Below, piece after piece: positions 3,212 to 8,898 of a stretch of 36,642 bases of DNA. The DNA comes from a virus. The stretch covers positions 1 through 36,642 of the IMG/VR virus record IMGVR_UViG_3300027763_000128; one strand, 5' to 3'. The notes below the pieces were generated by a model. It was not told where the DNA came from, searched no databases, and was given only the letters and a program-made list of their open reading frames with translations. The position numbers and the translations under genes are program-made. The number at the start of each line of letters is the position of its first letter. The first letter of the stretch is position 1.

Positions 3212-3393
3212 TATCCGTATGTTTTGTTGTAGTATTGTTCTGCCGTCATATTACCATCACTTGTAACACCTGATGCCCAAGAGTTCATTATCTGATTCTT
3301 CTCCATTTGTTTAGCTTGTTCTAAAATATTGTTTGAAAATGCAAATCCAAATTCAATTCTTAATTTTTCTGTTAACCATTCTACTGCTGTCAT
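3211..3393 (-). CDS. Small hypothetical protein (EWL...AEQYYN type)
   Basis: 60 residues beginning MTAVEWLTEKLRIEFG and ending with TAEQYYNKTYG. This reads like a common short protein in Bacteroidetes phage genomes (amphipathic N-terminal helix, KQMEK motif, C-terminal EQYYN), of unknown function. The start overlaps the HNH gene's TGA by ATGA, and its stop overlaps the next start, so it is a compact three-gene unit. Confidence 0.65.
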   Translation of the reverse strand: MTAVEWLTEKLRIEFGFAFSNNILEQAKQMEKNQIMNSWASGVTSDGNMTAEQYYNKTYG

Positions 3394-4055
3394 AATTTTG
3401 TTTTTCGTATAAATAAGAATTTAAGCGTTGTTTTATTATTAAACCTACCTGTAAGCATATTAGACAAATGACTTCTTGATACCATATTATCTTTAGCTGC
3501 TTCTGTTACACTTTCATAAATTTTATTACTATTGATATCAATTACTTTTTTACAAGGTCTTGTAACCTTTTGTAATCCGTTTGCAAATGAATGCAATCCA
3601 TTTTCAGATTGAGTAACCCATTCAAGATTTTCTATTCTATTATCGTGCTTTACTCCATTTTTATGATTTACTTGTTTTTTATTTTTTGGATTATCAATAA
3701 ATTCTTGAGCAAGTAATCTATGTTGAAGCACGTTTTTTGGTTTTCCAGCAACCCAAATTTGTGTTTTCATATAACCATTATTGTCTTTTGTCCATTTTTT
3801 AAATTTATTTGTATTATGATTATACAATCTACCATCAATATATAATGTAATATTTGGTACTATATATTTCGCCGTTTGCTTTTCTTTAGCTTGAGTATTT
3901 GAATTTATTAGTACATCTTGTGAACTTGTAGTTTCCAATTTACCAAGAATCTGATTAAATTTTACTAAATGTTCGACTGTTGTTTGATTAGGATCTAACG
4001 CACCCTTCAAACTCATATAGTTTTTAGCTCTTTGTTTAGCTTCATCGTTACTCAT
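3390..4055 (-). CDS. HNH homing-type endonuclease fused to a small phage protein
   Basis: 221 residues. Residues about 1-50 (AKQRAKNYMSLKGALDPNQ...) resemble an independent short Bacteroidetes phage protein. From about 70 onward there is an HNH endonuclease: IDGRLYNHNTNKFKKW, HRLLAQEFIDNPKNKKQVNH, then NRIENLEWVTQSEN, the classic HNH_3 core, followed by a C-terminal DNA-binding module (KVIDINSNKIYESVTEAAKD...SRSHLSNMLTGR, NUMOD1-like). Such enzymes nick or cut DNA and spread by homing. Coding DNA from about 3400 to 3900 is visibly richer in A/T homopolymers than the flanking genes, consistent with recent acquisition. The fusion could be the result of insertion into the small gene. Confidence 0.85.
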   Translation of the reverse strand: MSNDEAKQRAKNYMSLKGALDPNQTTVEHLVKFNQILGKLETTSSQDVLINSNTQAKEKQTAKYIVPNITLYIDGRLYNHNTNKFKKWTKDNNGYMKTQIWVAGKPKNVLQHRLLAQEFIDNPKNKKQVNHKNGVKHDNRIENLEWVTQSENGLHSFANGLQKVTRPCKKVIDINSNKIYESVTEAAKDNMVSRSHLSNMLTGRFNNKTTLKFLFIRKTKL

Positions 4056-4295: not shown

Positions 4296-4805
4296 TTATT
4301 GATACTTATTTAATAGGTTATCATAGAACTTAAAAAACTCTTCCATCGAATGAACAATTACATACACACCACCTGATGCGGTGATACTTTCTTGATACTT
4401 CTTCTGCGCTTCTGATTGCTTGTCTTTCATCTTAATCTCAATCTTAACCGATATACCAACCTTATGCCCACCAATCACCACTCCGATGGTTGAATGGATA
4501 TCAGCCGTGCCTCGTGTTCCTTGACTTGGTGTAAAGGTAACACCTTGTGTACGATTGCCTATTTGTTGACCTGTTAAGCCATCTATGACCTTGTTAACCC
4601 TTGCTTGACCTTGATTGCTTACCCTCTCGGCTTGATGTCCTTCGTACTTGAGGTAATCGCATACACAAGCGGTTAGTCCGTTAGCTGTTGTGTCAGTTCT
4701 GCCGTAATGGTCAAAACTATCTTGTTGAGGTGTGATGCTTGGATACTTGGCTCGTGAGTATCGTTGCTTGGCTTGGATGATGCGTTGTTTTTCTTGTCTT
4801 GTCAT
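4296..4805 (-). CDS. VRR-NUC / PD-(D/E)xK nuclease
   Basis: 169 residues. The C-terminal half has the VRR-NUC nuclease layout: GTRGTADIH (D102), a strand KIEIK (E123, K125) giving the ExK metal-binding pair, then KQSEAQKKYQ (Q130, Q134) and the end motif ASGGVYVIVHSMEEF. These enzymes are structure-selective nucleases acting in replication or recombination (Holliday junction or flap processing). The N-terminal 60 residues are basic and may bind DNA. The ATG overlaps the stop of the gene at 4802-5017 by 4 nt. Location next to the candidate origin and primase-helicase fits a role in processing replication intermediates. Confidence 0.8.
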   Translation of the reverse strand: MTRQEKQRIIQAKQRYSRAKYPSITPQQDSFDHYGRTDTTANGLTACVCDYLKYEGHQAERVSNQGQARVNKVIDGLTGQQIGNRTQGVTFTPSQGTRGTADIHSTIGVVIGGHKVGISVKIEIKMKDKQSEAQKKYQESITASGGVYVIVHSMEEFFKFYDNLLNKYQ

Positions 4806-5017
4806 TGGTGTTCAAGTGTTAGTCCTAACTGGACTATTAGTTTTATAATGTTTTCGTTTCGTTGCGACATTGCGTTAAGTATTGTTGGTATCGTATACTC
4901 ACCTGTTCCCCTTCGAGGCGGTTCATCTTGTCGGTCTTGAGTAAGATTAAATCCTTGCGTTGTGATGAGGTCAAATGTTCTCGTACTTGTAAGGATAATC
5001 GGTTTGCTTGTTGACAT
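4802..5017 (-). CDS. Small hypothetical protein in a doubly open region
   Basis: 71 residues beginning MSTSKPIILTSTRTFD and ending LIVQLGLTLEHQ; no family recognised. Its stop overlaps the VRR-NUC start (ATGA), the coupling seen across this genome. A second frame (5040 to 4843, 65 residues, beginning MNSNILKLCQQ) is also open over the same DNA and starts after an ACAA-ATG context. By hand count, GC at codon positions 1/2/3 is about 48/41/31 percent in the 4802-5017 frame. The alternative frame would therefore have its highest GC at position 3, unlike the neighbouring nuclease gene. I therefore prefer this frame, but overlapping translation of both is possible. Confidence 0.5.
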   Translation of the reverse strand: MSTSKPIILTSTRTFDLITTQGFNLTQDRQDEPPRRGTGEYTIPTILNAMSQRNENIIKLIVQLGLTLEHQ

Positions 5018-5041
5018 AGTTTAAGGATGTTTGAGTTCATT

Positions 5042-5050
5042 TGTGGATAA
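5042..5050 (-). promoter_or_regulatory. Consensus DnaA box
   Basis: The minus strand reads TTATCCACA, the perfect consensus DnaA binding site. A weaker variant (TTATCAACT) follows at 5061-5069. Both abut the TGCGACAT array, and the phage encodes a protein with a DnaA domain IV (8533-8898). Confidence 0.7.
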
Positions 5051-5068
5051 GTTTATAAAGTTATCAAC

Positions 5069-5326
5069 TGCGACATAGGTGCGACATTTTTTAGACCAAT
5101 GTCGCAGTAAATGTCGCAGTAGTTTTTCAATGATACCAATGGTTTCAGAGCCTTACTGCGACATATGTCGCACTTTGCGTTTTCAAAATATTTTTTTAGA
5201 AATTTCATTTTCATAATCTTTTTAGTAGGTGCGACATTCAAAATGTCGCAGTTGGTGTTAAATCGTTGATATCATTGAGTTTGCAAGGAATATTAGGTGC
5301 GACATACTGCGACATTGGTGCGACAT
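5069..5326. repeat. TGCGACAT iteron array, candidate replication origin
   Basis: Eleven exact copies of the octamer occur in 258 bp. Forward starts are 5069, 5080, 5157, 5230, 5298, 5308, 5319; inverted copies (ATGTCGCA) are at 5099, 5111, 5165, 5243. Spacing is mostly 10-13 bp, about one helical turn, and 5157-5172 is the perfect palindrome TGCGACATATGTCGCA. An AT-rich stretch (about 5182-5226) lies inside the array. The last copy touches the stop codon of the primase-helicase. A small open frame (5053-5241) runs through the array but encodes only translated repeats. A DnaA box lies at one end. Iteron-type origin is the best reading; a multi-copy operator is the alternative. Confidence 0.8.
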
Positions 5327-7590
5327 TATTTGCTCAATTCAGCAATATATCTCTGAATTTGCTTCCTTGATACATTCAACAACTCGGCAACTTCACTTCT
5401 ATTCAACTCAGGGTTAAGTGTGTATAACTCTTTGAATTTATCCTTTGTATTCATACTTTTATTAGCTATCATAGACGTCTTCATTTCCTTCACTTCCATC
5501 GTGTTTACCTTAATCTTTTTAGCCATTGCTACAAAGTACTTTGATAACCGTTCAGCCTTTAACATAGATTCCTTAGATATAAGCAAGGATGCCTCAGTTG
5601 GCTTCTCGGTCATATAACAATCAAGACAATGGATTAACAATGCGAAACGTGGTATGTAAGACTTCTGCTTCGGCAACATTGACTTCATATATTCGTTCTC
5701 CTCATCAGAGTTCTGAACGGATGTAATCTCATTGAAGATACGCTTCCATTCGATACGAGCATCATTTGATAAACGTGCGATATAAGGGTCTATTTCCATA
5801 TCAAGGTTATAGTTTACCACCCTACGCTTATAATGGTCATAAAACGCTTGTATTGCATTCGTATACCACTCCACCGCATCATACGGCATCTCGTTATCGT
5901 TATAGTGTTCTACTTCTAACTCAGGGAAGGTAAGTAGCATCCTATCAACGAATCCATTATCCTTGTTCTCATCGGTATAGAAGGTATTAAGTATCGAAGG
6001 TTGTATACCACCAAGTACAGGAATCAATGGTCGTTCAACGAATGAACCAACCCTTGACATACGATTAAACGATACAGGCGAACCTGACCAAGTACTCAAC
6101 CAAAACTCCAAATCAGAACCCTCACGATACTTATTCATATCCTTAAACCACCCATTTAACTCATCCTTGAACACACCGACTGCATTCTTCGATTGCTCGT
6201 GTAAGTCAACAAGTGCCTCAAGAGTGATGTCATTAGCTATGAACTGCGTCTTAACTGGCTTGGGAACATCCTCTACTTGCTTCTTCTCTGCTTCACTTGA
6301 CTTAGAGTATACGGCATACTTCTCAGCGTGTTTGAGATAAGATTTAATCTCCTTTGAGTTAATCTTCATCAATGGATGGATGATGTTTTTAATACTCGGT
6401 GTCTTACCAAGTCCTGCCTTACCTACCACCGCTATCCATACGTTGGCAGTCTCAACCCATCCACGTTTAACTTCGATGTGTATAGAGTTACCAACTACAA
6501 TAGATGTCACCCATAACATAGAACAACCCATATAATCAATGCTACTATCAAGGGTGTTGTTGCACTCAATCATATAGTTCTGAATAGGTGCAGGGAAGAT
6601 GTCAATAGGGAACTTTAAGTCATCAGTATTGATACTTGTCTTAATGCGATTCTCAGGTAATGGTTTCACAATCCGAGAACCAAATCCCTTAGAGTATAAC
6701 TCCTTACCTGCAACACTCATATTACCATTGTAATACTTGTATGCGTATGCAATAAACGGAGTAATTAGTTTCTCATTCGGATAGATAGTCCCAGTTGAAA
6801 ATAGGAACATACAACCACTATCCTTGTACACATATCCTGATTGCGAAGATTCTGCTCCGTGTCTAAGTATAATATCGTGCTTAGATAACTTACGCACTAT
6901 CTTGAAGTCCTCACCAATGATATCATAGATAGAAGTCTTCTCGTTATAGTCTTGCCACGGAGTAATGTTACTTGCATCGTACTCCTTAGCTACCTTCTTA
7001 TCAGGTTGTAGTTGTTCGGATTGGTCAACGTAGTTGTAAGTACGGCAGATTGACCATAATATGCGTCTATCTCTCTCGCTAATAGTTTGGATTGATAGAT
7101 AGTCTAACTTAGAGATTTGATTGTCATAAACAACTACATAGCCACCAATACCACGAGATTCGATGATGCACTCTTTATGTCCTTTGAGTTTGGCTATCTT
7201 AGAGTTACCTTGAATAGTATCGCACTTGTAAAGAATGTGGTATCCTTGATTCTTAGTCTTGTAGATGACAAACTTGCGATGAAAGTCATCAATGTTATCT
7301 TTAAGGTAGGAATGTAGTTCGTGCCAAAATTCCTCTTGCTCAGGTAATGTTGGGAATACTTTTAAGTCAACATCTATAACTTCAAGGTTGTTGTATCCTG
7401 TAAGGATGCCTATTATCTCGGTCTTCGCTGATGTTGTTTCGCCATTATATGCTTTAGCCATCTCAGGTTTCGTGATAGGAGTTGTTTGATACTCCTTCCA
7501 AGTGTGCATATTAGGTTTCTTATTCGCAGATGCAGTTATAAGGCTAAACCCTGTGTCAAGTAATCGGTAACATCTATCTAATGTAATCAT
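5326..7590 (-). CDS. Primase-helicase (Prim-Pol plus DUF3987 AAA+ domain)
   Basis: 754 residues. Residues about 1-190 resemble a bifunctional primase/polymerase (AEP) domain, with the metal-binding pair D73-x-D75 in EVIDVDLK, H118 in GYHILYK, and ESRGIGGYVVVY at 144-155. Residues about 320-690 are a DUF3987-type ATPase: Walker A GKAGLGKT (390-397), Walker B FKDEL (D476, E477), and a putative arginine finger R550 in GFVDRML. The C-terminus (about 715-754) is a helix-turn-helix (LNRSEVAELLNVSRKQIQRY) that could recognise the repeats just downstream of the gene. Probably the replicative helicase-primase. The ATG is preceded by ACACAAT and a leader of about 80 nt from the box at 7678. Confidence 0.85.
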   Translation of the reverse strand: MITLDRCYRLLDTGFSLITASANKKPNMHTWKEYQTTPITKPEMAKAYNGETTSAKTEIIGILTGYNNLEVIDVDLKVFPTLPEQEEFWHELHSYLKDNIDDFHRKFVIYKTKNQGYHILYKCDTIQGNSKIAKLKGHKECIIESRGIGGYVVVYDNQISKLDYLSIQTISERDRRILWSICRTYNYVDQSEQLQPDKKVAKEYDASNITPWQDYNEKTSIYDIIGEDFKIVRKLSKHDIILRHGAESSQSGYVYKDSGCMFLFSTGTIYPNEKLITPFIAYAYKYYNGNMSVAGKELYSKGFGSRIVKPLPENRIKTSINTDDLKFPIDIFPAPIQNYMIECNNTLDSSIDYMGCSMLWVTSIVVGNSIHIEVKRGWVETANVWIAVVGKAGLGKTPSIKNIIHPLMKINSKEIKSYLKHAEKYAVYSKSSEAEKKQVEDVPKPVKTQFIANDITLEALVDLHEQSKNAVGVFKDELNGWFKDMNKYREGSDLEFWLSTWSGSPVSFNRMSRVGSFVERPLIPVLGGIQPSILNTFYTDENKDNGFVDRMLLTFPELEVEHYNDNEMPYDAVEWYTNAIQAFYDHYKRRVVNYNLDMEIDPYIARLSNDARIEWKRIFNEITSVQNSDEENEYMKSMLPKQKSYIPRFALLIHCLDCYMTEKPTEASLLISKESMLKAERLSKYFVAMAKKIKVNTMEVKEMKTSMIANKSMNTKDKFKELYTLNPELNRSEVAELLNVSRKQIQRYIAELSK

Positions 7591-7696: not shown

Positions 7697-8059
7697 TTAG
7701 AAAGGAAGAGAATCTCCTAATGGATCACTCGGATGCACCACTTCCGCTTGAACTGTCTCAATGTGTTGACCACTACCTTTCGCCTCAATCCTCCAAGCCT
7801 CAAGCGAATTGAAATACGATGTCTTACCATCCTTAGTCCATTCCTTACCACGAATATTGAAGTGGATGATAACCTGTTGCCCAGTTTGGAACTTGTCCAA
7901 CAAAGGACATTTGTCTTGCGTCAATTGGAATTGAAGATACTGCGGATACTCACCATCCGTTTGCAGGATGAACTCACGCTTTGTGAACTTGTCCGATACT
8001 TGTACGGCATCTCGTTTGATAAGCAGTCTGCCATCTGCTGTGTACTTTTCTGTACTCAT
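7697..8059 (-). CDS. DUF3127-type single-stranded DNA-binding protein
   Basis: 120 residues. Core blocks KREFILQTDGEYPQYLQFQ, FQTGQQVIIHFNIRGKEW and TSYFNSLEAWRIE match the DUF3127 OB-fold family found in Bacteroidetes and their phages. The end DPLGDSLPF mimics the acidic, Pro-Phe-terminated tip by which SSBs recruit partners. It would coat single-stranded DNA at the phage fork, alongside the primase-helicase just downstream. Its leader contains a 21-bp element (8071-8091) also found 11 nt before the next upstream gene, and ACACA directly precedes the ATG. Confidence 0.85.
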   Translation of the reverse strand: MSTEKYTADGRLLIKRDAVQVSDKFTKREFILQTDGEYPQYLQFQLTQDKCPLLDKFQTGQQVIIHFNIRGKEWTKDGKTSYFNSLEAWRIEAKGSGQHIETVQAEVVHPSDPLGDSLPF

Positions 8060-8532: not shown

Positions 8533-8898
8533 TTATCCGCACTTCACCACCTCAAACCTACTTATAATACACGCATCGCCACTATACCTCCTACGAGGCT
8601 CATACAACGATGTTTTCAAGTTAGGTGCATTATGTCTTAGCAAGGTAACAAATCTCTCGTAAAGAGCATCTTGTGTGTCTTTCATATTATTCACAACTTT
8701 AATCGAATTGATGATAGTTGTATGGTCACGATACGAAAGGAATCTGCCTATCTCGGAAAGGTTGTAACCATTCTCGTAGGCGATGAAACAAAACAAATGT
8801 CTTGCCGTTGCGATGTCCAAAGTTCCACGACCACTATCTTGAATTTTCTTGATGGGGATGTTTAATCCTGTTGCGATGTCTATTAGTATTCTATCCAT
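8533..8898 (-). CDS. DnaA domain IV-like DNA-binding protein
   Basis: 121 residues. Residues about 5-72 match the C-terminal DNA-binding domain of DnaA: IPIKKIQDSGRGTLDIATAR, a helix ending in FIAYENGYNLSEIGRFL, and the signature RDHTT (57-61) that reads the DnaA box. The ATPase domain of DnaA is absent, so it binds DNA without forming an ATP-driven filament. The C-terminal 45 residues are basic and unassigned. In context (SSB, primase-helicase, DnaA box at 5042) it probably marks the phage origin or redirects host DnaA. A one-mismatch DnaA box (TTATCCGCA) lies at its own 3' end (8533-8541). Confidence 0.85.
   Translation of the reverse strand: MDRILIDIATGLNIPIKKIQDSGRGTLDIATARHLFCFIAYENGYNLSEIGRFLSYRDHTTIINSIKVVNNMKDTQDALYERFVTLLRHNAPNLKTSLYEPRRRYSGDACIISRFEVVKCG

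Follow-up and report, generated by a model that had tools for sequence, protein, structure and literature searches.

An iteron array beside a Prim-Pol/DUF3987 primase-helicase gene as the probable replication origin of a phage family

An array of exact octamers that ends at the stop codon of a Prim-Pol/DUF3987 primase-helicase gene (positions 5069-5326) is very likely a phage replication origin, with iterons bound by the Prim-Pol/DUF3987 protein itself. The array lies in IMG/VR virus record IMGVR_UViG_3300027763_000128, which was analyzed over its entire 36,642 bases (hereafter the window). No terminal repeats were found on this record, and its gene content (terminase, portal, major head, and tape-measure) is that of a tailed phage. 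Sequence comparison shows that recognition helix and iterons are matched, that the arrays share a scaffold with an AT-rich centre, and that the cassette is exchanged between phages; binding, ring assembly, melting, and the start of replication are inferred.

The octamer TGCGACAT/ATGTCGCA has 12 exact copies in the window, compared with 0.82 expected and a maximum of 5 in 100 shuffles, and 11 of these copies fall within the 258 bases of the array (Table 1). No variant with one or two mismatches was found in 5030-5340, so all 11 array copies are exact. Counted from the gene outward, the distances between octamer starts are 11, 10, 55, 13, 65, 8, 46, 12, 19, and 11. The last octamer (5319-5326) meets the stop codon, the end of the gene being the edge of the array. 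GC skew falls steadily across the window and, with nearly all genes on the same strand, is uninformative about the location of the origin. An initial annotation, made without database searches, had reported eleven exact copies in this region, a 16-bp palindrome at 5157-5172, a twelfth octamer at 4863-4870, and a primase-helicase gene "immediately upstream," and had proposed octamer enrichment and GC skew as checks. A recount upheld the eleven copies and the palindrome is perfect, the computed enrichment bears out the array, and "upstream" is correct in transcription order. The twelfth copy is present but stands alone and is within chance expectation, and the skew check gave no origin location.

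Table 1. Features of the proposed origin and its neighbourhood in the window
Feature	Position	Strand	Details and basis
Perfect DnaA box TTATCCACA	5042..5050	-	Probably incidental or a local addition
Outer iteron cluster, far from gene	5069..5118		TGCGACAT at 5069 (+), 5080 (+), 5099 (-), 5111 (-)
Inner iteron pair	5157..5172		Perfect 16-bp palindrome; 5157-5164 (+), 5165-5172 (-)
Central gap	5173..5229		AT-rich, 0.88 A+T over 40-bp core; proposed DNA unwinding element
Inner iteron pair	5230..5250		5230-5237 (+), 5243-5250 (-)
Outer iteron cluster, gene side	5298..5326	+	TGCGACAT starts at 5298, 5308, 5319, all +
Primase-helicase, 754 aa	5326..7590	-	Pfam, PHROGs, AlphaFold model
Primase-helicase domains			Prim-Pol residues 11-155; DUF3987/MCM-like AAA+ 350-692; C-terminal HTH
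Codons of C-terminal tri-helical HTH (residues 715-753)	5332..5448	-	Model helices; weak Pfam HTH matches
Codons of recognition helix (residues 742-753)	5332..5367	-	Sliding-window prediction and covariation
DUF3127 single-strand DNA-binding protein	7697..8059	-	Pfam PF11325 4.5e-24, phrog_4932

An AlphaFold model of the primase-helicase built from 51 relatives (mean pLDDT 83.7) predicts C-terminal helices at residues 715-725, 731-737, and 742-753, which together form a tri-helical HTH with 742-753 as its recognition helix. The N-terminus of the model matches the archaeal pRN1 primase-polymerase in Foldseek, and residues 330-699 align with MCM and CMG helicases (Z 15-17 over ~270 residues, VIA-align). 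The model thus predicts an MCM-like AAA+ ATPase fold for the DUF3987 domain, whose hexamer and helicase activity are inferred. DUF3987 had previously been predicted to be a helicase, with the suggestion that the C-terminal WH of such primases may read origins (Kazlauskas 2018, PMC5862659). No PDB chain matching the primase-helicase by sequence was found, nor any isolated phage or plasmid with a match spanning 80% of the protein. The DUF3127 gene lies just before the primase-helicase gene, in the same replication module, and 35 of 97 relatives carry it in their flanks.

Arrays of this kind accompany the gene throughout the family. Among 98 distinct related proteins, gathered from the first four of our scans (seven viral, one genome), an iteron array adjoins the Prim-Pol/DUF3987 gene in 96; loci L152 and L207, which lack a clear array, were excluded. 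The array lies behind the gene in 51 loci and before it in 45, having switched sides 4 times on the catalytic-domain tree. The commonest 8-mer usually has 5-15 copies within 350 bases (at most 3-6 in shuffles), and 18 different 7-mer cores occur among the 96 arrays. Relatives that keep the genes without the array had been set beforehand as a refuting case; they were sought and not found, the array being kept while its letters differ. Near-duplicate loci are present in this set, and weighting, leave-out thresholds, and independent pairs correct for them only in part. A reading of the array as twelve sites for two hexamers is not shown, with a median of 10 exact copies per array and 11 in the window. 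Among looser DUF3987 relatives (plasmids and one gut phage clone), two Bacteroidales plasmids (L265 and L266) have a few repeats behind the gene and the rest have no distinct repeats; the array design is not shown to extend to these relatives. One of the two plasmids, from Bacteroides xylanisolvens (L265), carries six AACTGAAA copies behind its DUF3987 gene (5325-5446), which might be the same design in simpler form, in a host that can be cultured.

The arrays share a geometry that is independent of their letters. Spacings between iterons of the same orientation have a helical period of 10.9 bp in 62 independent arrays (power 130 vs a null maximum of 10.4). Alignment of 52 independent arrays by site positions only yields a common layout of four clusters (outer, ~45-55 bp, inner pair, ~60-70 bp, inner pair, ~45-55 bp, outer), with a leave-one-out score of 0.082 vs at most 0.066 with permuted spacings. 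Along this frame A+T reaches 0.90-0.94 at the centre and is ~0.72 elsewhere, and the central gap exceeds both lateral gaps in 50 of the 52 arrays (means 0.91 vs 0.69 and 0.70; p = 4e-9). The arrays thus satisfy two criteria of an iteron origin, namely multiple short repeats next to the initiator gene and an AT-rich DNA unwinding element in a fixed place, though melting itself is inferred.

A referee might prefer to see an operator here, through which the HTH or a separate repressor controls the primase gene or the operon behind the array, without any origin function. In favour of this reading, the window array sits between two same-strand genes and also precedes the next operon, and the array comes before the gene in 45 of the 96 loci. 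Autoregulation through iterons is also common in plasmids. An operator, however, requires neither four helically phased clusters nor a fixed centre of 91% A+T and would not need the same geometry behind the gene as before it, and the probable reader of the array is the primase-helicase. We therefore regard a pure operator as unlikely: the scaffold and its AT-rich centre have the look of an origin with a DNA unwinding element and exceed what an operator needs. An operator role in addition to the origin is possible, and one point that weighs against the origin reading is that in the 45 loci with the array before the gene it could also be an operator there. A further alternative is that the HTH reads a partition site (centromere) or a packaging site. 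Iteron arrays are known to act as centromeres as well, though no direct evidence of this was found here. We consider this reading very unlikely, as the array accompanies the primase-helicase gene rather than ParA or terminase, the terminase lies ~29 kb off in the window, and an AT-rich centre would be unexpected.

Covariation strongly supports the C-terminal HTH of the primase-helicase as the reader of the iterons, which we consider very likely on comparative evidence alone. The iteron of each locus was predicted from the most similar other locus among those with <75% catalytic identity. When similarity was judged by the recognition helix, 0.98-1.04 of 8 bases were mismatched, compared with 1.83 for the catalytic domain, 2.14 for helices 1-2, and 2.44 for a random neighbour. 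The best 13 of 738 eight-residue segments all start at residues 735-747 (covering 735-754), with the next best at 1.76, and the same 13 lead when purely automatic frames are used. Over 41 distinct helices, the strongest links pair residue 742 with the third iteron base and residue 747 with the seventh. In all 92 loci whose frames were set automatically, the presence or absence of Arg742 matches that of G at iteron base 3. Both traits change along the same 9 branches of the tree, and all 8 independent pairs are concordant (p = 0.008). Contact between arginine and guanine provides a textbook basis for this link. The iteron frames of four loci (L009, L198, L032, and L190) were set by hand and excluded from these counts, and three Lys742 loci with hand-set frames would break the R/G rule in automatic frames. 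In a column-wise partial Mantel test, a few clades dominated the outcome and helix and catalytic columns were mixed at the top; prediction from neighbours, leaving out close relatives, and independent pairs were used in its place.

The R/G rule was fixed before three further scans, but after two of the loci concerned (L262 and L264) had been seen. Five held-out loci without Arg (L262, L335, L341, L371, and L401) have GTTTAAAA, and two with Arg have G3 (L264, TTGCGCAA; L343, GTGTAAAG). A further Arg locus (L339) fits the rule in one of two orientations, the orientation being ambiguous. Locus L394 is truncated where the contig ends; the copies still present belong to the TTTAAAA type, and its automatic call is a 15-bp tandem repeat (18 copies at 1375-1700, before the primase-helicase gene) that we consider unrelated to iterons because it is evenly spaced. 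Held-out loci with an array thus fit the rule or are compatible with it, though the test is only modest (~8 loci with flanks) because several are close to known loci.

Comparison of near-identical phages shows that the HTH-coding end and the array have been replaced together in two groups. The L009 protein differs from that of the window in 0.7% of 681 catalytic residues and, within the recognition helix, at residues 742, 743, 746, and 747. The iteron changes from CTGCGACAT in the window to CTATGCAAA in L009. DNA identity between the two is ~0.95 at first, drops to 0.2-0.5 across the array and the final tens of bases of the gene, and is 0.97 directly behind. A similar drop over the HTH end and array is seen for L173/L179, L184/L180, and L182/L173, and identity between the window and L007 remains at 0.9-1.0 across the array. 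Of the pairs with <5% catalytic divergence, 74 have the array behind the gene, and the iterons differ in 22 of these; they differ in none of the 29 pairs whose array precedes the gene. Exchange may be easier when the HTH end and the array are linked, but this is a hint and not a result because the 22 differing pairs come from two clades only.

Several observations concern the neighbouring genes. Two overlapping same-strand ORFs of 65 and 71 aa occupy 4802-5040 (-) in different frames with ~175 bp shared; both are open and ~77-85% identical in L171, L007, and L009, and dual coding is possible. The gene directly behind the small ORFs (window 4296-4805) is nuclease-like in the window and L171, and L007 and L009 have the starts of methyltransferase-like genes at the same place (judged by eye on the translations). 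This region behind the origin resembles an exchange hotspot. An HNH endonuclease is encoded at 3390-4055 (phrog_59, 1.7e-36) and may be a homing endonuclease.

Another rival holds that the origin is driven by host DnaA or by a phage DnaA-domain-IV protein, with the iterons as accessories. It draws on the perfect DnaA box beside the array and on a small phage protein consisting of DnaA domain IV alone (8533-8898; Pfam 2.4e-10). However, TTATNCACA has 4 copies in the window vs 3.1 expected, placing the DnaA box alone at chance level, and among the 96 loci a perfect box occurs near the array only in the window and its closest relatives (L171, L007, and L009). Only 10 of 97 relatives have the DnaA-domain-IV gene in their flanks, which are limited in extent. 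We thus consider this rival very unlikely. The box was rejected as a part of the design, being at chance level and kept in the closest relatives only; the protein was rejected as iteron reader, being found in few relatives with nothing that ties it to the iterons. DnaA boxes are common in iteron origins but are not required of all, and this criterion is not met by the array design. The protein might instead compete for or borrow host DnaA boxes. The initial annotation had read the region as an iteron origin that included the box at 5042-5050, and had named the primase-helicase HTH or the DnaA-domain-IV protein as candidate readers. Its origin reading is supported because the scaffold with its AT-rich centre is conserved across the 52 arrays and the array adjoins the primase-helicase gene in nearly all relatives, and its first candidate reader is strongly supported by covariation. 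The sequence of the box was confirmed, but its role in the origin and the second candidate reader are not supported.

For the origin reading we propose the following mechanism. Many copies of the Prim-Pol/DUF3987 protein would bind the iterons, each through its own C-terminal HTH, whose recognition helix would enter the major groove of a single 8-9-bp iteron and read it there (Arg742 at the base-3 G, residue 747 at base 7). The four helically phased clusters would align the protein, and MCM-like AAA+ rings, probably two, would flank the AT-rich centre, melt it, and unwind outwards. The fused Prim-Pol would then prime synthesis, with phage SSB and a host or phage polymerase following.

A bolder reading, towards which we lean slightly on the side of doubt, is that the origin and the adjoining end of the initiator gene are exchanged as a single specificity cassette, in which geometry is fixed and letters change fast through a simple helix-to-base code, giving separate origin types. 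If true, co-infecting phages, satellites, and origin-directed nucleases could not use or cut each other's origin, and origin types would be comparable with plasmid incompatibility types. Sequence analysis by itself yields an initiator whose protein-DNA code can be read, a fixed origin architecture, and one enzyme scaffold with ~18 natural specificities, among them near-identical phages with different cassettes. These results allow origins of uncultured phages to be predicted from the last residues of one gene, and allow direct tests of how the geometry positions a self-loading MCM-like helicase and of why origin specificity diversifies.

The principle is already known from satellite (PICI/SaPI) rep-ori replicons, which work alike. 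Every PICI origin has an AT-rich region with a set of iterons on each side, and pri-rep-ori drives the replication of a plasmid (PMC6092414). In these Staphylococcus and E. coli islands, Rep likewise combines a helicase and an AEP primase with an iteron-reading C-terminal domain (PMC6092414, PMC7581432), and the origin lies directly beside rep with two iteron sets around an AT-rich stretch (PMC6092414). Of the corresponding criteria, flanking iteron sets are present in the window-family arrays, and origin specificity set by the C-terminal domain is met by covariation and natural swaps only. The criterion of a satellite without full capsid and packaging genes is not met, given the window's terminase, portal, major head, and tape-measure genes. 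Here, by contrast, the carriers are full phages with capsid, terminase, and tail genes, a DUF3987 (MCM-like) helicase is fused to the Prim-Pol, four phased clusters are paired with a small tri-helical HTH with a readable code, and the array can lie on either side of the gene. Because the carrier is a phage with structural genes of its own, the replicon does not qualify as a member of the PICI family.

Other systems share parts of the design. The C-terminal domain of SCCmec Cch/Cch2 binds short repeats behind the gene, and these proteins form hexamers and dodecamers and are self-loading helicases; for Cch2, however, only three 5-nt iterons were found, and its primase is a separate, unrelated enzyme (PMC7581432). 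No covariation is reported for Cch/Cch2 in the relevant sections of that study. Phage P4 alpha with ori/crr unites primase, helicase, and origin binder in one chain, with iterons on a phage-like element, but differs in helicase family and DNA-binding fold and has two separate sites. In the PLE satellites of Vibrio cholerae, RepA initiators and iterons covary, only cognate pairs replicate, and modules are swapped (PMC8263062, PMC7145576), possibly driven by an origin-directed phage nuclease (PMC8263062). RepA, in contrast, is a RepA_N dimer that binds ~30-bp iterons through an N-terminal domain, with no primase or helicase in the chain. The PrimPol-PV1 primases (PrimQH and All3500) have the same order of Prim-Pol and DUF3987, a predicted helicase, and a C-terminal WH predicted to read origins (PMC5862659). 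That was a prediction without origins, whereas origins, code, and geometry are provided here, and we found no earlier report of origins for this Prim-Pol/DUF3987 family in the open-access literature searched. What is new relative to these systems is thus the family's origins, their readable code, the helically phased four-cluster geometry, and cassette exchange in phages.
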